NCBI GenBank assembly: GCA_945882315.1
Contig: CAMCWB010000003.1
Location: 1-64,000, forward strand
DNA: 64,000 nt
Reading direction: 5' to 3'
Source: Bauldia litoralis
GTDB lineage: Bacteria; Pseudomonadota; Alphaproteobacteria; Rhizobiales; Kaistiaceae
Numbering within the stretch: the stretch's first letter is position 1; each line of letters starts with the position of its first letter. The notes under the pieces were generated by a model. It worked only from the letters and a program-made list of their open reading frames with translations, ran no database searches and was not told where the DNA came from. The position numbers and the translations under genes are program-made. Positions 54,987 through 63,473 of this stretch are shown here, one piece after another.

Positions 54987-55463
54987 GTGGCAGAACTTCC
55001 CCCCGCCGCTCACCGCGTCCAGACGGCTGCGATCGAGCTCAGGCTCAACGTCGAAGTCCGCATCATGCCGGACAGCACGCGGACCGCAGCCGAAGCTGCC
55101 GCGGCCTGCGGCTGCAAAGTCGGACAGATCGTCAAGTCACTGATCTTCAAGGGAAAGTCGAGCGGACGCCCCTACCTGCTCCTCGTCTCCGGCACCAACC
55201 GTGTCAATGAGCATACGGTCGAACATGTCATCGGCGAGGCAATTCTGCGGCCGGATGCGGACTTCGTGCGCAATGAGACAGGATTTGCGATCGGCGGCAT
55301 CCCGCCGCTCGGCCATCCGCAGCACATCGGCACATATATCGATGAGGACCTGTTGCAATATGAGACGGTCTGGGCCGCCGCCGGGACACCCAACGCCGTC
55401 TTCTCCGTCGACCCCGAAGCGCTCCGCGTCGCGGTCAGCGCCCATACGCTGAAGGTGACGTGA
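54987..55463 (+). CDS. YbaK/EbsC family aminoacyl-tRNA deacylase
   Basis: The 158-residue protein starts at a GTG following AAAGGA. It is a free-standing editing domain like that of prolyl-tRNA synthetase insertions. Conserved parts are AAAACGCKVGQIVKSLIFK, with the catalytic Lys, and the GFAIGGIPPLGHP loop. Such proteins clear mischarged tRNA, for example Cys-tRNA(Pro). It stands alone, followed by a repeat. Confidence 0.92.
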   Translation: MAELPPAAHRVQTAAIELRLNVEVRIMPDSTRTAAEAAAACGCKVGQIVKSLIFKGKSSGRPYLLLVSGTNRVNEHTVEHVIGEAILRPDADFVRNETGFAIGGIPPLGHPQHIGTYIDEDLLQYETVWAAAGTPNAVFSVDPEALRVAVSAHTLKVT

Positions 55464-55562: not shown

Positions 55563-56738
55563 TCACAACACGCCGGTGATCGCCTTGCGGTACAGCCCCT
55601 CATAATCCGCCGCCGTCATCGGCACGGGGTTGCCGCCGGTCGAGGGATCATGCTCCGCCATCGGCGCGGCCTCCGCGATCATGTCCTCGCCGACGCCGAT
55701 CTCGGCCAGCGTGTTGGGGATGCCGATCTCGCTGCGGAGCCGCAGCACCCACTCGATCACGGCTTGCGGGCTATGGGCCTTGAGGTCGAGATAGCGGGCG
55801 AGCGCCGCCAGCCGGCCGTCGACCGCGAAACGGTTGTGCTCGAGCACATAAGGCATAACGACCGCATTGGTCAGGCCGTGATGCGTGCCACGCAGGCTCG
55901 AGCAGGGATGGCTCATCGCGTGCATCGCGCCGAGCCCCTTCTGGAAGGACACCGCCCCCATCGACGACGCCGCCATCATGAAGGCACGCGCCTCGACATG
56001 ATGACCGTCCTTGACCGCCGCCGGCAGCCATTCCTTGACGAGCCGCATGGCTTCGAGCGCGATGCCCTCGCCGAGCGGATGGAAGAAGGGGCTGCAATAG
56101 GCTTCGAGCGCGTGGCTGAGCGCATCCATGCCCGTCCAGGCCGTGATCTTCGCCGGCAGGTCGAGCGTCAGCTCGGGATCGGCGATGACCACCTTCGGCA
56201 GCAACAGCGGATGGAAGATGATCTTCTTGGTGTGGTCGGACGGATCGGTGATGACCGCGGCGCGGCCAACCTCCGAGCCGGTGCCGGCCGTGGTCGGCAC
56301 GGCAACGATCGGCGCGATGCCCTTGGCGTCGGCACGCGTGAACCAATCCTCGCGATCCTCGAAATCGAAAACCGGCCGCGACTGGCCCGACATGAAGGCG
56401 ATGAGCTTGCCGATATCCATCGCCGAGCCGCCGCCGAAGGCGATGACGCCGTCATGATTGCCGGCGCGATAGGCGGCGAGACCGTCGTCGAGATTCTTCA
56501 GCGTCGGGTTGCCATCGACCTTGGAGAAGATCGCCGACGGAATGCCGGCCGTCTTCAGGATGTCGAGCGCCCGGCCGACGATCGGCAGCGACACAAGCCC
56601 CGGATCGGTGACGAAGAGCGGACGCGAGATGCCCGCCATGCCGAGCGCCACTGGCAGTTCGGCGACCCGGCCCGGCCCGAAGCGGATGGCCGTCGGGTAA
56701 AACCAGTTGGCGATGATCGAAGGATAGCGGTCGAGCAT
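55563..56738 (-). CDS. Iron-containing alcohol dehydrogenase
   Basis: The ATG at 56738 (MLDRYPSIIANWFYPTAIRF) gives 391 residues; the long in-frame extension upstream lies in the PH-domain gene and is a shadow. The NAD-binding GGGSAMDIGKLIAF (about 101-114) and the metal-site region AMSHPCSSLRGTHHG identify the type III (iron) family, related to lactaldehyde reductase and EutG. In this operon it would oxidise or reduce an alcohol/aldehyde group. It is the last gene of the operon, starting two bases after the PH gene stop. Confidence 0.93.
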   Translation of the reverse strand: MLDRYPSIIANWFYPTAIRFGPGRVAELPVALGMAGISRPLFVTDPGLVSLPIVGRALDILKTAGIPSAIFSKVDGNPTLKNLDDGLAAYRAGNHDGVIAFGGGSAMDIGKLIAFMSGQSRPVFDFEDREDWFTRADAKGIAPIVAVPTTAGTGSEVGRAAVITDPSDHTKKIIFHPLLLPKVVIADPELTLDLPAKITAWTGMDALSHALEAYCSPFFHPLGEGIALEAMRLVKEWLPAAVKDGHHVEARAFMMAASSMGAVSFQKGLGAMHAMSHPCSSLRGTHHGLTNAVVMPYVLEHNRFAVDGRLAALARYLDLKAHSPQAVIEWVLRLRSEIGIPNTLAEIGVGEDMIAEAAPMAEHDPSTGGNPVPMTAADYEGLYRKAITGVL

Positions 56739-56740
56739 GC

Positions 56741-57244
56741 TCAGTTCTCTTTTGCCGGCACCGCGGCCGCCGGCGGCGGCTTCACGACAAGGCCGGTGAT
56801 GTGGCTGCGGAAATCGAGCGGCGAGTCGATGTTGCGGAGCGGCGCCAGGCCGGCGCCGGTACCGCGGATGGTGATGTCGCCGAAATCGAACAGGCGGCCG
56901 AGCAGCGACTGGTTGACGTCGATGCTCTCGACCTTCTCGACGCCCATCTCGATCGTGTCGCGGCGGATGAAGCCGCGCTTGAAGATGATGCGCCGGTCGG
57001 TGATCGCGATCTCGGTCGTCCAGCGCTCGAACCATTCCTGCGCCAGCAGGAAGACCGCGATCGCCGCCAGGATGAGGTTGACGATATCGGCCCAGATCGT
57101 CGTGTCGAAGATCATGTGGGTGACGACGAAAAAGACGGCCGCGACGAGAAGCAGAACTCCGCCCGGTATGTACATCGCCCAGGAGAGCTTCGTCTCATAA
57201 ACGACCGTCTCGCCGGGCTGAAGGACCTGCTGGACATAGCTCAT
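56741..57244 (-). CDS. PH-domain (bPH2-type) membrane protein
   Basis: The 167-residue protein has two membrane spans (about 22-43 and 52-70) followed by a bacterial pleckstrin-homology domain (about 75-150) with W-T-T-E-I-A-I-T-D-R-R-I-I-F-K and IDVNQSLLGRLFDFGDI, the typical YdbS/bPH2 pattern. These proteins are membrane-bound and of unknown role. It lies inside the catabolic operon between the aldehyde and alcohol dehydrogenase genes, with 2-4 base gaps, an unexpected place for it. Confidence 0.88.
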   Translation of the reverse strand: MSYVQQVLQPGETVVYETKLSWAMYIPGGVLLLVAAVFFVVTHMIFDTTIWADIVNLILAAIAVFLLAQEWFERWTTEIAITDRRIIFKRGFIRRDTIEMGVEKVESIDVNQSLLGRLFDFGDITIRGTGAGLAPLRNIDSPLDFRSHITGLVVKPPPAAAVPAKEN

Positions 57245-57247
57245 TGG

Positions 57248-58630
57248 TCAGCCGATCTTCGTGCGGAGGTGGAAGCTTTTCGGCCGGGTCAGATTGTGGA
57301 AGCCGAATTGCGAGAGCGTGACGCCGCGGCCGGTATCCTTGACGCCCGTCCAGACGAGACCCGGATCGACATAGTCGCAGCGGTTCATGAAGACCGTGCC
57401 GGCGGCGACGCGATCGCCGATCGACGCGGCGCTATCCTCGTCAGTGGTCCAGATCGAGGCCGTCAGCCCGTAGGGGCTGTCATTCATCAGCGTGACTGCC
57501 TCGTCGTCGTCGCGCACCTTCATGATACCGACGACCGGGCCGAAGCTCTCCTCGCGCATGACCGCCATCTGGTGGTCGACATTGGTCAGCACTTCCGGCG
57601 CCAGGTATGGCGAGCCGGCGCGGTCGTTCTCGACCTTCATGCCGATATGCGGCCTGGCGCCCTTGCGGAGCGCCTCGGCGACCTGGTCGCGGACCGTGTC
57701 GGCGAAGCTGCCGCGCGCCATCGGGCCGATCGTCGTCGCCTGATCGAGCGGATTGCCGACGACATATTTCCTGGTGAGGTCGACGAAGGCTTCGAGGAAG
57801 GGTTCGAAGACCTTCTCGTGAACATAGATGCGCTCGATGCCGCAGCAGCACTGGCCGGAATTGAAGAAGCTGCCGTCGACGAGATTTTCGACGGCGTGGT
57901 CGAGCTTCACATCCTCGCGGACATAGGCCGGATCCTTGCCGCCGAGCTCCAGCCCGAGCGAGGCAAAGCTGCCGGCCGCGGCGCGCTCGACGGCCTTGCC
58001 GCCGGCGACCGAGCCGGTGAAATTGATATGCCGGATCTTGCCCGAGCCGATCAGCTTCTCGGTCTGCTCGTGGCTGAGCACGACATTGTGGAAGAGCCCC
58101 TTCGGCAATCCCGACTTCTCATAAGCCTGCTGGAACCGCTCGCCGACCAGCAGCGTCTGCGCCGCATGCTTGAGGATGACGGCATTGCCGGCCATCAGCG
58201 CCGGGAAGATCGTGTTGCCGGCCGTGAGGAAGGGGTAGTTCCACGGCGCCACGACGAGCACGAGGCCGAGCGGCTCATGCTTGATGTAGCGGCGGAAGCC
58301 GGCTTTCTCCTCGGGCACGAAGGATTGCAGCGATTCCGCCGCGATCGAGGCCATGTAGCGGCAACGCTCTTCGAGGCCGCCCTTCTCGCCGCCGAAGCGG
58401 ACCGGCCGCCCCATCTGCCAGGCGAGTTCGGGAACGATCTCGTCATTCATGGCAAGGACGGCATCGAGGAAGCCGAGCACCAGCTTGACCCGCTGGGCGA
58501 CAGGGACGAGGGCCCATTCGGCCTGCGCGGCGCGGGCCCGCGCGATCGCGACGTCGAGCGCCGCATCGGTCGTATAGGGACGCTCGGCATAGACCGAACC
58601 GTCGATGGGAGAGATGAGTTTTACGGTCAT
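57248..58630 (-). CDS. Aldehyde dehydrogenase family protein
   Basis: Starting at the ATG at 58630 the protein has 460 residues. The substrate-side WNYPFLTAGN, the NAD-binding FTGSVAGGKAV, catalytic Glu in LELGGKDP and catalytic Cys in NSGQCCCGIERI (about 255-266) are present. Three consecutive Cys at the active site and a Cys-rich neighbourhood are typical of the 4-guanidino/amino-aldehyde-type group. It oxidises an aldehyde to an acid with NAD(P)+. Its operon context points to a gamma-glutamyl aldehyde. Confidence 0.92.
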   Translation of the reverse strand: MTVKLISPIDGSVYAERPYTTDAALDVAIARARAAQAEWALVPVAQRVKLVLGFLDAVLAMNDEIVPELAWQMGRPVRFGGEKGGLEERCRYMASIAAESLQSFVPEEKAGFRRYIKHEPLGLVLVVAPWNYPFLTAGNTIFPALMAGNAVILKHAAQTLLVGERFQQAYEKSGLPKGLFHNVVLSHEQTEKLIGSGKIRHINFTGSVAGGKAVERAAAGSFASLGLELGGKDPAYVREDVKLDHAVENLVDGSFFNSGQCCCGIERIYVHEKVFEPFLEAFVDLTRKYVVGNPLDQATTIGPMARGSFADTVRDQVAEALRKGARPHIGMKVENDRAGSPYLAPEVLTNVDHQMAVMREESFGPVVGIMKVRDDDEAVTLMNDSPYGLTASIWTTDEDSAASIGDRVAAGTVFMNRCDYVDPGLVWTGVKDTGRGVTLSQFGFHNLTRPKSFHLRTKIG

Positions 58631-58648
58631 GATGGGCTCATTAGAGAA

Positions 58649-58727
58649 GTAGGGTGGGCAAAGCAAAGCGTGCCCACCATTTTGAAACGCGTCGGCACGG
58701 CGCTTCCCGCGCCTTTGCCCACCCTAC
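58649..58727. repeat. Palindromic intergenic repeat, family A, copy 2
   Basis: GTAGGGTGGGCAAAG (58649-58663) and its exact complement (58713-58727) flank a 49-base interior with a GCGTGCCCACC half like that of copy 1 at 12651-12742. It lies in the 111-base gap between the glutamine-synthetase-like gene and the aldehyde dehydrogenase gene, inside an operon. Confidence 0.85.
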
Positions 58728-58741
58728 AATAAACTCGCTTC

Positions 58742-60130
58742 TTAATATCGCTCGAACCCCCGCTTGAGCTCCCAGTCCGTGACCCGCCGGTCATACTCGA
58801 ACTGCTCCCAATCGGCGGTGTGAACATAGTGGTCGATGACCCCGTCGCCGAAGGCGGCGCGGAGCATCTTCGACTTGTCCATGAGGGCGGAAGCCTCGCG
58901 GAGCGTCTTCGGCACTTCCCGGAGCTTCTTGCCGAGATAGGCATCGCCGGAAAAGCCGGGCTCGAGCTCGAGGCCCTGCTCAATGCCGGCCAGGCCGGCG
59001 GCAAGCAGCGCCGCGAAGGCGAGATAGGGATTCAAATCGGCGCCACCGATCCGGCACTCGATGCGGATGCCCTTGGTGCCGGCGCCGCAGAGGCGGAAGC
59101 CGGCGGTGCGGTTGTCGAGCGACCAGATCGCCTTGGTCGGGGCGAAGGTGCCGGCCTGGAAGCGCTTGTAGGAATTGATGTAGGGCGCCAAGAACCAGGT
59201 GATCTCCCGGGCATAGGCGAGCTGGCCGGCGACATAGTTGCGCATCAGCTTGGACATGCCGTGCTCGCCCTTCTGGTCGAGGAAGAGCGGCTTGTCGCCT
59301 TTCACGTCCCACAGCGAATTGTGGATGTGGCTCGACGAACCGGCGAGGTCGTAGCGCCACTTTGCCATGAAGGTGATCGCCTTGCCCTGCAGGAAGGCGA
59401 TTTCCTTGCAGCCATTCTTCACGATGACGTGGCGGTCGGCCATGGTCAGCGCATCGGCATAGCGGACGTTGATCTCTTCCTGGCCAGGGCCCCATTCGCC
59501 CTTGGAATTCTCGACGGGGATGCCGGCGGCGTTGAGGCCCTTGCGGATCGCCCGCATCACCCCTTCTTCCTTGCTCGTCTGGAAGATGTTGTAGTCCTCG
59601 ATATAGGCGCCCGCGGTCTTGAGACCGTCATAGCGCTTGGCGGCGACCGCCTCGTAGCTTTCATCGAAGAGATAGAATTCGAGTTCGGAGGCGAAGAAGG
59701 CCGACATCTTCATCGCCGCCAGCCGCGCGATCTGCTTCTTCAGGATCGAGCGCGGCGCATGCGGGATGTCGGAATGATCGTGGTGGTCGAGGACATCGGC
59801 GAGCACCAGCGCCGTGCCTTCCAGCCAGGGCGTACGCCTGAGCGTCGCGAGGTCGGGCTTGAGGACGAAATCGCCATAGCCCTTCTCCCAGTTCGCGGCC
59901 GCATAGCCGGGCACCGGCTCCATGTCGATATCGTTGGCGAGGAGATAGTCGCAGCCATGCGTCTCGACATGGGCGGTCTCGAGGAAATATTCCGCCTGCA
60001 TGCGCTTGCCGATGAGCCGGCCCTGCATGTCCGGAAAGCAGACCAAGACGGTATCGATATCGTGGCCGGCAACCGCGATCTGCAGCTCTTTCATGGACAT
60101 CATGCCGGGCATGGTGGCGCGTTCCCTCAT
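58742..60130 (-). CDS. Glutamine synthetase family protein (PuuA/GlnA-like amine ligase)
   Basis: The 462-residue protein has the GS N-terminal fold (IDTVLVCFPDMQGRLIGKRM) and the C-terminal catalytic domain with ELEFYLFDESY (Glu ligand pair) and SSSHIHNSLWD (His of the active site). It also has NRTAGFRLCGAG and IECRIGGADLNPYLA. The replacements and short length relative to classical GlnA, and the neighbours, fit ligases that make gamma-glutamyl amides from amines (PuuA, IpuC). The start is uncertain: an internal ATG at 60112 follows GAGGGA. It would use glutamate, ATP and an amine. Confidence 0.92.
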   Translation of the reverse strand: MRERATMPGMMSMKELQIAVAGHDIDTVLVCFPDMQGRLIGKRMQAEYFLETAHVETHGCDYLLANDIDMEPVPGYAAANWEKGYGDFVLKPDLATLRRTPWLEGTALVLADVLDHHDHSDIPHAPRSILKKQIARLAAMKMSAFFASELEFYLFDESYEAVAAKRYDGLKTAGAYIEDYNIFQTSKEEGVMRAIRKGLNAAGIPVENSKGEWGPGQEEINVRYADALTMADRHVIVKNGCKEIAFLQGKAITFMAKWRYDLAGSSSHIHNSLWDVKGDKPLFLDQKGEHGMSKLMRNYVAGQLAYAREITWFLAPYINSYKRFQAGTFAPTKAIWSLDNRTAGFRLCGAGTKGIRIECRIGGADLNPYLAFAALLAAGLAGIEQGLELEPGFSGDAYLGKKLREVPKTLREASALMDKSKMLRAAFGDGVIDHYVHTADWEQFEYDRRVTDWELKRGFERY

Positions 60131-60140
60131 TTTGTGACGA

Positions 60141-60168
60141 GCCCGCCCCGGCCGGGGCCGGGACGGGC
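60141..60168 (-). other. GC-rich intercistronic hairpin before the ligase gene
   Basis: A 13-base stem with one mismatch (60141-60153 with 60156-60168) lies between the permease stop (60189) and the ligase start (60130). Having no T-tract, it is unlikely to be a terminator; it could protect upstream mRNA or tune expression. Confidence 0.45.
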
Positions 60169-60188
60169 GATCGGATCAGGCGCGAGGC

Positions 60189-61679
60189 CTAGACCTTGTG
60201 CGACATGGCGAATTCCTCTTCCGGCGACAGGATCAGCCGGTGACGGCCGATCAGGCCGAAATAGAGTATCGCCACGGCGAACCAGACCGCGACCCAGAAT
60301 ACGCCGTAGAAGAAGTTGGCGTCCTGGATCTGATACAGCAGGGTAACCGCGCCGATAACGATCGTCGCCACGGCGCCCGGTATGCCGAGCGGGCTCCTGT
60401 AGGGCCTCTCCATATGCGGCTGGTTCTTGCGCAGCAGGATGAAGGACGATGCCTGCAGGATGTAGGACAGCATCGCCCCGAACACTGCCATGTTCAGGAG
60501 AATGCTGCCGATCGTCGCCCCGCCCTGCTCGGCGCCCTGGCTGAACCAGATGATGAACATGATCGCGAGGCCGACGATCGAGCCGGTGATCATCGCGACA
60601 TGCGGCGTCTTGTAGGTCGGATGCGTGACCGAGAGCGCGCTCGGGAAATATCCCGCCCGCGACAGCGAGTAGATCTGCCGTCCTTGCGCATAGAGGATCG
60701 TGTGGAAACTGGCGATCAGCCCCGTCAGCGCCGCGATGCCGAGCGCCGTCACGCCGACATCGCCATAGACGGCCCGGAAGCCGTCGAGGATCGGCTCCAG
60801 CGAGGTGCTGAGAGCGAAGGACCCGACGCCCGCCACGGACGGATTGAGCAGCACGATCATAAAGGCCGAGACGATCAGCGTGATCATGCCGAGGATGATG
60901 CCCTTCGGCATGTCGCGCTTCGGATCGACCGATTCTTCCGCGGCGAGCGGCAATTGCTCGATCGCCAGGAAGAGCCACACCGCGAAGGGCAGCGAGGCAA
61001 GGATGCCGCCGATGCCGAAGGGGAACCAGCTACCGCCGCCTTCGGGCAGTTCCACAGCGGCGCCGTCCGGACCGACGCCGATATTCAGCGCCCAGCGCGT
61101 GAAGTCCATGTTCGGGATCGCCGAGATCCAGAAGAAAACCAGCACGCCCAGCGACAGGAGGGTCACGATCAGCGTCACCTTGAAGGACAGTTCGACGCCG
61201 AAGATGTTGAGGGCCAGGAAGATGATGTAGACGGCGACCCAGAGGAAGGGCGAATAGGAAGGATCTATGCCGAATATCGAATTCACATAGGCGACGACGA
61301 AGGTACAGACGACCGCCGGCGTGATGACATATTCGACGTTTTCACAAAGGCCGGTGATGAAACCGCCCCACGGGCCCATCGCGGTTCGCGCGAAGGAATA
61401 GGCCGCGCCGGTATGCGGCAAAGCCGGCGCCATCTCGGCAATACAGAAGACGAGGCCGAGATACATGATCGCGATGATGATGCCCGCGACGAGCAGGCCG
61501 CCCCAGCCGCCGGTGCCGAAACCGAAATTCCAGCCCGAGAAATGGCCTGAAATAACCGCGCCGACGCCGAGAGCCCAGAGCGACCAGATGCCGGCATAGC
61601 GCTGGAAGCCACGTTTATCGAAATAGTCCTTGTCGGCGCGGCGATAGGATACGCCGCCCGCTGCATTCTGATCAGCCAT
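60189..61679 (-). CDS. APC-family permease, ethanolamine-permease-like
   Basis: The ATG at 61679 follows GGGAG at eight bases and gives 496 residues with about twelve membrane spans. After an N-terminal basic tail it reads GVGAVISGHFSGWNFGFGTG and ALPHTGAAYSFARTAMGPWG. Among APC carriers the V-I-S-G-x-x-x-G-W-N/S-x-G pattern is a feature of ethanolamine permeases (TC 2.A.3.5), so an amino-alcohol is a reasonable substrate guess. It follows the amidohydrolase gene by 33 bases and precedes the ligase gene by 58. Confidence 0.9.
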   Translation of the reverse strand: MADQNAAGGVSYRRADKDYFDKRGFQRYAGIWSLWALGVGAVISGHFSGWNFGFGTGGWGGLLVAGIIIAIMYLGLVFCIAEMAPALPHTGAAYSFARTAMGPWGGFITGLCENVEYVITPAVVCTFVVAYVNSIFGIDPSYSPFLWVAVYIIFLALNIFGVELSFKVTLIVTLLSLGVLVFFWISAIPNMDFTRWALNIGVGPDGAAVELPEGGGSWFPFGIGGILASLPFAVWLFLAIEQLPLAAEESVDPKRDMPKGIILGMITLIVSAFMIVLLNPSVAGVGSFALSTSLEPILDGFRAVYGDVGVTALGIAALTGLIASFHTILYAQGRQIYSLSRAGYFPSALSVTHPTYKTPHVAMITGSIVGLAIMFIIWFSQGAEQGGATIGSILLNMAVFGAMLSYILQASSFILLRKNQPHMERPYRSPLGIPGAVATIVIGAVTLLYQIQDANFFYGVFWVAVWFAVAILYFGLIGRHRLILSPEEEFAMSHKV

Positions 61680-61712
61680 CGGAAGCACTCCCCAATTATC
61701 CCCAGTTTCCAG

Positions 61713-62495
61713 TCAGCCTTCAGCCCGCGCCGGCGACAGGCCGGCCGCGCTTGAACTCGTCAGCAACGCATCGGTGAGACGATCCGCCCAGGACTCGATC
61801 CCGGCCCGCGTGCGCAGGAGATCGTTGCGGATCTCGACCATCACATGCGGCAGTCCGCGATCGCGACCGTGGCGGCGGATCGTATAGTCGACATTGTCCT
61901 TCGCCGAATAAGGCTCGTTGTCGCCGACGACGAGCGTCGGGTCGCGGCGAAGCGCACCGAGCACGCGGTCGGCGAGACTGCGCTCGTCCGTCGAGATGAT
62001 CCCGGCGTGCCAGGGCCGCGAGATGCCGCGATAGACCGGCGTGAAGGAGTGAATGGTGACGAGCGTCGTCAGGCGCTTGGCACGAAGTCTTGCCCCGATG
62101 ACCTTGTCGAGCGCCGCATGAAAAGGCTCCCACAAAGCCTTGATCCGACTCTTCTTTGCGTCGGGCGACAGGCCGACGTTACCGGGAATGTCGGTATATT
62201 CGGATCGTTCGGGAATCGCGTCGGGCAGGACCGGATCGCGATTGCAATCGATCGCGAGGCGCGAATAGCGCTGTGCCACCAGTGCGGACTCGGTACGGTC
62301 GGCGACCAGCCGGGCAACGTCGAAGGCGCCGGGGTCCCAGGCAATGTGGCGCTGGAGGTCCTCTGCGCCGAGGCCGAGCGTTCCGAGCGCCCGCGGCAGG
62401 ACACTCGAAGCATGCTCGCAGACGATGACTAAAGGACCGTCCGCTTCACGGACATCCACCACCGGCAGTTCGTCTGCAGCAAGGAGGGCTTCCAT
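61713..62495 (-). CDS. N-formylglutamate amidohydrolase family protein
   Basis: The 260-residue protein has the family motifs VCEHASS (His of the metal site), the HIAWDPGAFDVARLVAD helix, RLAIDCNRDP (conserved Arg/Asp) and a late HVMVEIRNDLL. Homologues in histidine degradation remove formate from N-formylglutamate, but no hut genes are present here. In this operon it would more naturally hydrolyse a gamma-glutamyl amide to release glutamate. That role is inference from position. It is the first gene of the operon. Confidence 0.9.
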   Translation of the reverse strand: MEALLAADELPVVDVREADGPLVIVCEHASSVLPRALGTLGLGAEDLQRHIAWDPGAFDVARLVADRTESALVAQRYSRLAIDCNRDPVLPDAIPERSEYTDIPGNVGLSPDAKKSRIKALWEPFHAALDKVIGARLRAKRLTTLVTIHSFTPVYRGISRPWHAGIISTDERSLADRVLGALRRDPTLVVGDNEPYSAKDNVDYTIRRHGRDRGLPHVMVEIRNDLLRTRAGIESWADRLTDALLTSSSAAGLSPARAEG

Positions 62496-62642
62496 CTTGC
62501 CCCTGTCAGGTCAGTGCATCGCCCCTAATTGAATAAAGAGGCCGGACTCACCGGGAATTAAAATTACAGAACTAGCGATTTTCGTCAATTCTGAAATATT
62601 AGCATCATCTGCCTCTATACGGGGCAATCCTGGGGGGTGCGC
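62496..62642. promoter_or_regulatory. Divergent control region of the amine-catabolism operon and rpiR gene
   Basis: The 147-base gap is AT-rich for this genome. A partial dyad TTTC/GAAA with an AATT centre lies at 62580-62596, a plausible operator for the adjacent RpiR-type regulator, which would act on both directions. The plus-strand start at 62643 has a G-run just upstream. Confidence 0.45.
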
Positions 62643-63473
62643 ATGTCGGGTGATTTCGCGCTGTCGGTCGCCGAACTGATACGCCGTGATCTTGCCGACC
62701 TGACCCGCAACGAAAAGCGCGTCGCCCACCGCCTCCTCGCCGACTACCCGCTCGCCGGCCTCGAGACCGTCGCCGCCTTCGGCAAGGCCGCCGGGGTCAG
62801 CGCGCCGACGGTATTGCGCATGATCGCCAAGCTCGGCTTCTCCAGCTACGGCGCCTTCCAGAAGGCGCTTCGCGCCGAGCTCTCGGCCCAGCGGCAGACG
62901 CCGCTGATGAAGGGCGCCGACTATTCCTCCGACGATCCGCTCAAGCGCTTCGCCGACGCGACCATCGCCAATCTCCGCGAGACAACGGCCAATGTCGCCG
63001 GCGAGTTCGAGGCGCTGGTGGCGCTGCTCGCCGACGGCAATCGGCCGGTGCATGTCATTGGCGGTCGCTTCACCGACCCGATCGCCGAATATCTGGTCGC
63101 CCATCTCCGCGTCCTGCGGCCGCGCGTCCGCCGCATTACCGGGCAGCCGGCCGGCTGGCGCGATCAGCTTCTCGACGTCGGCCGGCGCGACGTGCTGCTC
63201 CTCTTCGATATCCGCCGCTATTCGGAAGATCTGGAAATGCTGGCCGGCAGCGCGGTGAAGCGCGGCGCCACGATTGCGCTCTTCACCGATCAATGGCTGT
63301 CGCCGATCTCGAAGGTCGCGCGGCACGTTCTGCCCGCCCATGTCGCGGTCCCGTCAATCTGGGACTCGTCGGCCGGGCTTCTGCTGCTTGTCGAGGCGCT
63401 CCTGTCGGCGATTGCCGCCGCGCTCGGCCCGGCGGCCCGAAGCCGTCTTGCCGCCATCGAAGCGATGCGCTGA
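62643..63473 (+). CDS. RpiR/MurR family transcriptional regulator
   Basis: The 276-residue protein has an N-terminal helix-turn-helix of the RpiR type (about 15-75; NEKRVAHRLL, AAGVSAPTVLRMIAKLGFSSY). A C-terminal SIS domain (about 115-260) follows, which in relatives binds a sugar phosphate or other small ligand. It is divergent from the amine operon and is its likely regulator. A ligand derived from the pathway would be expected. Confidence 0.92.
   Translation: MSGDFALSVAELIRRDLADLTRNEKRVAHRLLADYPLAGLETVAAFGKAAGVSAPTVLRMIAKLGFSSYGAFQKALRAELSAQRQTPLMKGADYSSDDPLKRFADATIANLRETTANVAGEFEALVALLADGNRPVHVIGGRFTDPIAEYLVAHLRVLRPRVRRITGQPAGWRDQLLDVGRRDVLLLFDIRRYSEDLEMLAGSAVKRGATIALFTDQWLSPISKVARHVLPAHVAVPSIWDSSAGLLLLVEALLSAIAAALGPAARSRLAAIEAMR

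Follow-up and report, generated by a model that had tools for sequence, protein, structure and literature searches.

The window analyzed here, a stretch of 64,000 nucleotides of Bauldia litoralis (contig CAMCWB010000003.1), holds at positions 55563 to 63473 seven genes that very probably form a B12-independent operon for the catabolism of ethanolamine, a constituent of cell membranes, via gamma-glutamylation; the substrate, each reaction, and the regulation are those that we infer. This reading is based on a list of functions like that of the operon of Phaeobacter sp. MED193 (PMC10132767), on the kinship of the ligase with Csal_0679 and with the protein of structure 11zs, on a binding protein of a sister locus that matches Csal_0678, on the match of the permease to model TIGR00908, on Phe at the position of Glu327 of Escherichia coli GlnA, and on the lack of eutB and eutC matches in the assembly. 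The sequence-only reading had offered this route as a candidate because it compared the genes only with the Streptomyces GlnA4 cluster. The route itself gained support, since it matches the one published for MED193 in the available passages of that paper (PMC10132767), but it is not new, as a closer published match than GlnA4 exists. Ethanolamine glutamylation is thus already published in other bacteria, and the variant details here are an ethanolamine (Eat)-type permease and a PH-domain gene.

In the proposed route, an APC permease of the Eat type (60189 to 61688, minus strand; AA_permease_2, 131.8 bits; in-frame ATG at 61679) would import ethanolamine, which a glutamine synthetase (GS)-like ligase, probably a gamma-glutamylethanolamide synthetase (58742 to 60130, minus strand; Gln-synt_C, 323.4 bits; probable start ATG 60112), would join with ATP to the gamma-carboxyl of glutamate, yielding gamma-glutamylethanolamide. 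An iron-type alcohol dehydrogenase (Fe-ADH), the probable gamma-glutamylethanolamide dehydrogenase (55563 to 56738, minus strand; Fe-ADH, 164.3 bits, and C-terminal domain, 135.4 bits), would then oxidize the hydroxyl to an aldehyde while the glutamyl group masks the amine, and an aldehyde dehydrogenase, the probable gamma-glutamyl-aminoacetaldehyde dehydrogenase (57248 to 58666, minus strand; Aldedh, 389.5 bits; probable start ATG 58630), would convert this aldehyde to gamma-glutamylglycine. An amidohydrolase of the N-formylglutamate amidohydrolase (FGase) family, probably a gamma-glutamylglycine amidohydrolase (61713 to 62495, minus strand; PF05013, 142.9 bits), would split this product into glutamate, which would be recycled, and glycine. 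A split gcvP-like pair is found in the genome, each piece scoring below the model cut-off, and could consume the glycine. The divergent RpiR-family gene (62637 to 63473, plus strand; HTH_6, 42.5 bits, and SIS, 48.7 bits) would regulate the operon, and the remaining gene encodes a membrane protein with a bacterial PH domain (56741 to 57244, minus strand; bPH_2, 59.4 bits).

The order of the genes, the orientation of six of them on the minus strand, and the divergent position of the RpiR gene were borne out as the sequence-only reading had described them, and each of the seven proteins had a Pfam match above cut-off. Its statement that no eutBC genes lie in the window extends to the whole assembly, where eutB and eutC each gave 0 matches while the E. 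coli controls were detected, and the V-I-S-G...G-W-N motif that it had noticed was confirmed, the permease read having VISGHFSGWN at residue 45. Only 3 bases separate the stop of the aldehyde dehydrogenase gene from the start of the PH-domain gene and 2 bases the stop of the latter from the ATG of the Fe-ADH gene, a spacing that suggests a single transcript for the three. The operon is flanked on the plus strand by a gene for an aminoacyl-tRNA editing domain protein (54987 to 55463), which scored 49.9 bits on the Cys-tRNA(Pro) deacylase model against a cut-off of 153.25.

The ligase belongs to the clade of Csal_0679. Its closest solved relatives are 11zs (688 bits), titled as a Brucella melitensis protein, and 5dm3 (567 bits), titled as Chromohalobacter salexigens Csal_0679, and the next one reaches 155.5 bits. 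The modeled ligase superposed on 5dm3 with a Z score of 47.3 over 373 residues (root mean square deviation [rmsd], 1.8; 55% identical) and on 11zs with a Z score of 44.8 over 423 residues (rmsd, 2.0; 62% identical), Csal_0679 being the second-closest solved ligase by sequence and the first by Z; the remaining structural matches listed had Z scores of at most 40.3 and identities of at most 30%. The predicted structure has a predicted local distance difference test (pLDDT) score below 50 at residues 68 to 81, 256 to 264, and 319 to 327, probably near the active site. In an alignment of 47 clade members, thinned at 88% identity from 114, the residues at E. coli GlnA positions 129, 131, 212, 220, 269, 321, 339, 344, 357, and 359, which we take to be catalytic, were unchanged in all 47. 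Glu327, presumably the ammonia flap, was replaced by Phe in every member and Asn264 by Ala in 45 of them; a paralogue of the same genome (C77) retains the flap Glu. The kept catalytic core together with the replacement of Glu327 by Phe would fit an enzyme for which ATP and glutamate, but not ammonia, are substrates.

Next, 104 loci carrying a close homologue of the ligase were compared, namely the best 80 of 374 relatives on named genome contigs, 20 stretches of unnamed relatives, and 4 plasmid loci. Three pairs among them have identical ligase sequences, Pseudomonas is heavily represented, and many of the loci are cut off by the end of their contig; neighbors were counted within 6.5 kb of the ligase at more than 35% identity. 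An aldehyde dehydrogenase was found near the ligase in 94 loci, an Fe-ADH in 91, an FGase-family gene in 29, and an RpiR gene in 26, all four being present in 22. The frequency of the two dehydrogenases indicates that the gene order is not due to chance. No FGase or RpiR match was found in the stretches examined around the Pseudomonas loci, which points to a short core made of the ligase and the two dehydrogenases. A GS match of some kind was present in every one of the 61 genomes searched from the family and order of the window; in 36 of the 60 other genomes, it reached at least 61% identity, three of these matches being partial.

Two of the plasmid loci differ in their surroundings. On a Paraburkholderia symbiosis plasmid (L160, 7004 to 8362), a ligase 63% identical to that of the window has neither dehydrogenase matched nearby, and the stretch also carries genes named 2-aminoethylphosphonate transaminase and gamma-glutamyl-GABA hydrolase; this type of ligase may serve another purpose there. 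A Ruegeria conchae plasmid (L159, 4549 to 11898) has a more distant ligase (57%) together with an FGase-family gene and both dehydrogenases, with DeoR regulators and an EamA transporter annotated and RpiR and TRAP genes not matched.

The ethanolamine permease model TIGR00908 was the best model for the window permease (348.6 bits), the next family scoring 215 bits lower (133.4), and the VISG...GWN motif was present in seven of seven Eat-type homologues checked and in none of three other APC permeases from like loci. All solved relatives of the permease are distant (best, 53.9 bits). At a sister locus (L100), the TRAP binding protein encoded beside the ligase matched 4uab with 464 bits, and its model superposed best on 4xf5 (Z, 37.6) and 4uab (Z, 37.3), both Csal_0678, followed by a match with Z 31.9; the solved relatives of such loci thus carry the neighboring locus tags Csal_0678 and Csal_0679.

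As to the substrate, the alcohol dehydrogenase step needs a hydroxyl, and any amino alcohol supplies one. The same chemistry might serve 2-amino-1-propanol, 1-amino-2-propanol, 3-amino-1-propanol, or a broad range in which ethanolamine is one of several. Structure 4xf5 is of Csal_0678, reportedly with 2-amino-1-propanol. This alternative appears unlikely, as the published relatives are tied to ethanolamine in the available passages (PMC10132767) and the window permease is nearest to the ethanolamine model.

We treat the transporter as an exchangeable part of the operon and not as a defining one, given that the Eat type is also carried by 7 related loci. Near the ligase of the 104 loci, we found TRAP genes in 18, an Eat-type APC permease in 7, APC permeases of other types in 46 (43 like the Kaistia query, 2 like that of Sinorhizobium meliloti, and 1 like that of L102), and no recognized transporter in 33. 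The substrate of these three other APC types is less clear, since their best model was the general TIGR00907, far below its cut-off. At L071 and the Pseudomonas loci, the permease gene is located downstream of the alcohol dehydrogenase gene and not before the ligase gene. Within the window's family, an Eat-type permease was found in 1 of 28 genomes, the window's own (E value threshold, 1e-100), and a search of that genome for the ethanolamine binder EtoX gave no close match (best, 25% identical). Most simply, the Eat-type permease would have replaced a TRAP system or another permease while the enzymes were retained.

Both dehydrogenases carry the residues that we take to be catalytic or metal binding. 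At least 98% of 91 aligned sequences kept N143, E240, and C274, the candidate catalytic residues of the aldehyde dehydrogenase (numbered on a 472-residue read), and at least 98% of 89 kept D208, H212, H276, and H290, the candidate metal ligands of the Fe-ADH (numbered on a read that begins 3 residues early); the window is included in both sets. An amine pathway devoid of an alcohol step, of the putrescine, isopropylamine, or methylamine type, with the Fe-ADH being unrelated to it, would be conceivable since PuuA, IpuC, and GmaS are GS-like ligases too and since the window ligase matches the gamma-glutamylputrescine synthetase (PuuA) model NF045547 with 182.5 bits. However, that score is far under the cut-off of 650, the GmaS entries among the structural matches were just 27% identical to the ligase, an Fe-ADH accompanies the ligase in 91 of the 104 loci, and no PuuB-like amine oxidase was found among the operon proteins scanned with Pfam, making an amine pathway very improbable. 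Histidine breakdown or ordinary glutamine synthesis, with the FGase-family protein acting as HutG and the ligase as a glutamine synthetase, is suggested by database names alone and can be practically dismissed, because the HutG model TIGR02017 failed (21.7 bits versus a cut-off of 278.75), the genome has no match to PF00221 (HutH family), the ligase reached only 228.5 of the 429.15 bits required by the GlnA model, and the flap Glu is Phe throughout the clade. Two additional FGase paralogues are encoded elsewhere in the genome.

The RpiR gene diverges from the FGase-family gene in 21 of the 22 loci that hold RpiR, FGase, aldehyde dehydrogenase, and Fe-ADH genes near the ligase, the exception being L106, where it lies downstream; judging from this arrangement, the RpiR protein probably controls the operon. 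A palindrome search over 24 RpiR/FGase intergenic regions, with ends set from match ends (L108, the same as L013, was dropped, while L041 and L107, which are identical, were both counted), returned CTGAAA-N6-TTTCAG, present in 9, 12, and 17 regions when up to 1, 2, and 3 mismatches, respectively, were allowed, compared to means of 0, 0.09, and 1.35 in 100 mononucleotide shuffles. In the window, the divergent promoter contains a weak operator-like site (62580 to 62608, plus strand) in which a copy with 3 mismatches (62591 to 62608) overlaps TTTC-N9-GAAA (62580 to 62596). We consider the operator only a lead, since the pattern was picked from the same regions, which biases the control, and since the window copy has 3 mismatches.

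For the PH-domain protein, an accessory or passenger role is probable. A strong homologue (E value of 7.5e-55 or better) was found in 4 of 28 genomes of the family, the window's included, with a weak match in a fifth, and in all four (window, L099, L100, and L101) the gene stands between the aldehyde and alcohol dehydrogenase genes. Since L099, L100, and L101 carry TRAP genes at the locus, the PH-domain gene does not track the permease type. It is absent from L103, L109, and L117, which belong to the genus of L100 and L101. Its presence at the operon in three genera hints at a use. Across the wider order, a PH match was found in 74 of 397 genomes. Around homologues in other families of that order, we retrieved 20 stretches of 10.8 to 16 kb (some truncated by the end of a contig) from the 72 matching genomes other than G000 and G003. 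None of the 20 contained a ligase, FGase, permease, RpiR, or Fe-ADH match at an E value of 1e-5, and the lone operon-type match was a 32% aldehyde dehydrogenase match in L152. As the operon is absent around these homologues, the PH-domain gene appears to be a common gene that entered the operon within one family. Of seven neighboring frames scanned in three of these stretches, two had no family, and the others were AnmK, tyrosyl-tRNA synthetase, EamA, an amino acid kinase with an ACT domain, and a weak phage tail match; the families of these neighbors pointed to no function for the PH protein. The tight packing between the dehydrogenase genes and the same placement of the three strong homologues found among the 27 other family genomes would allow a more specific and rather doubtful role, in which the protein holds either the ligase or the two dehydrogenases at the inner membrane for direct hand-over of the reactive aldehyde or senses the turnover of ethanolamine phospholipids.

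Several observations weigh against the ethanolamine reading. The window permease stays below the TIGR00908 cut-off of 381.75 bits, and so do three related permeases from like loci (359.3, 367.9, and 359.7 bits). Asp50 and Ser53 of E. coli GlnA, presumably the ammonium site, align with Pro and Ala, but the alignment is unsure there, as residues 68 to 81 are those of low pLDDT and the column is variable in the clade. Seventy-five of the 104 loci had no FGase match nearby, 78 had no RpiR match, and 33 had no recognized transporter; the full set is thus not universal, although contig ends or diverged queries account in part for these gaps. In addition, the tie between the window and MED193 runs through the C. 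salexigens structures and the gene list of the paper, the published route gives the PH-domain gene no place, and the true substrate, or a further one, could be a related amino alcohol.

Overall, the operon adds a clear example of ethanolamine glutamylation in a genome without an eutB or eutC match and illustrates how transporters (TRAP, Eat-type APC, or other APC types) are swapped while the enzymes stay. It should also help in annotating genes named "glutamine synthetase family protein" or "N-formylglutamate amidohydrolase." The Eut pathway starts from the same substrate but is B12 dependent and uses the EutBC ammonia lyase, for which eutB and eutC gave no match in the assembly. A literature search that mostly covered papers outside subscription listed no paper evidently describing an operon of this kind with a PH-domain gene or one pairing an Eat-type permease with an iron alcohol dehydrogenase. 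The Streptomyces coelicolor GlnA4 cluster (SCO1610 to SCO1615) shares an ethanolamine ligase, an aldehyde dehydrogenase, an amidohydrolase, and, in some species, a permease, but in the available passages it lists a short-chain dehydrogenase instead of an iron alcohol dehydrogenase (PMC6529630) and the regulator EpuRI instead of RpiR (PMC6529630, PMC9397018). Loci on S. meliloti pSymB (L157) and Rhizobium leguminosarum pSK03 (L158) have RpiR, FGase, amino acid permease, ligase, aldehyde dehydrogenase, and Fe-ADH genes in the same order as the window; the L157 permease is of another APC type, the L158 permease is 88% identical to it, and both loci are without a PH-domain gene.

The closest published match is the MED193 operon (MED193_10021 to MED193_10056), which, in the available passages of the paper, comprises RpiR, a gamma-glutamylglycine amidohydrolase, the TRAP transporter EtoVWX, an ethanolamine gamma-glutamylase, a gamma-glutamylacetylaldehydeamide dehydrogenase, and a gamma-glutamylethanolamide dehydrogenase (PMC10132767). 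On phosphorylethanolamine, the two dehydrogenases, the ligase, and the amidohydrolase increased, as did EtoX, whose Kd for ethanolamine is 7.9 uM (PMC10132767). The window shares the regulator, the amidohydrolase, a transporter, the ligase, the aldehyde and gamma-glutamylethanolamide dehydrogenases, and the same proposed steps, the dehydrogenases being likened by listed function since their fold is not named in these passages (PMC10132767). It differs by its Eat-type APC permease in place of EtoVWX and by its PH-domain gene, which does not figure in the MED193 figure legend (PMC10132767). The same passages call the MED193 genes closely related to the ethanolamine-use genes of C. salexigens and Agrobacterium tumefaciens C58 and name Csal_0678 as the EtoX homologue of C. 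salexigens, with ethanolamine bound alike (PMC10132767). C. salexigens in turn differs from the window by its TRAP binding protein in place of an APC permease and resembles it in that Csal_0679 is near the window ligase while Csal_0678 is matched by the binding protein of the sister locus.

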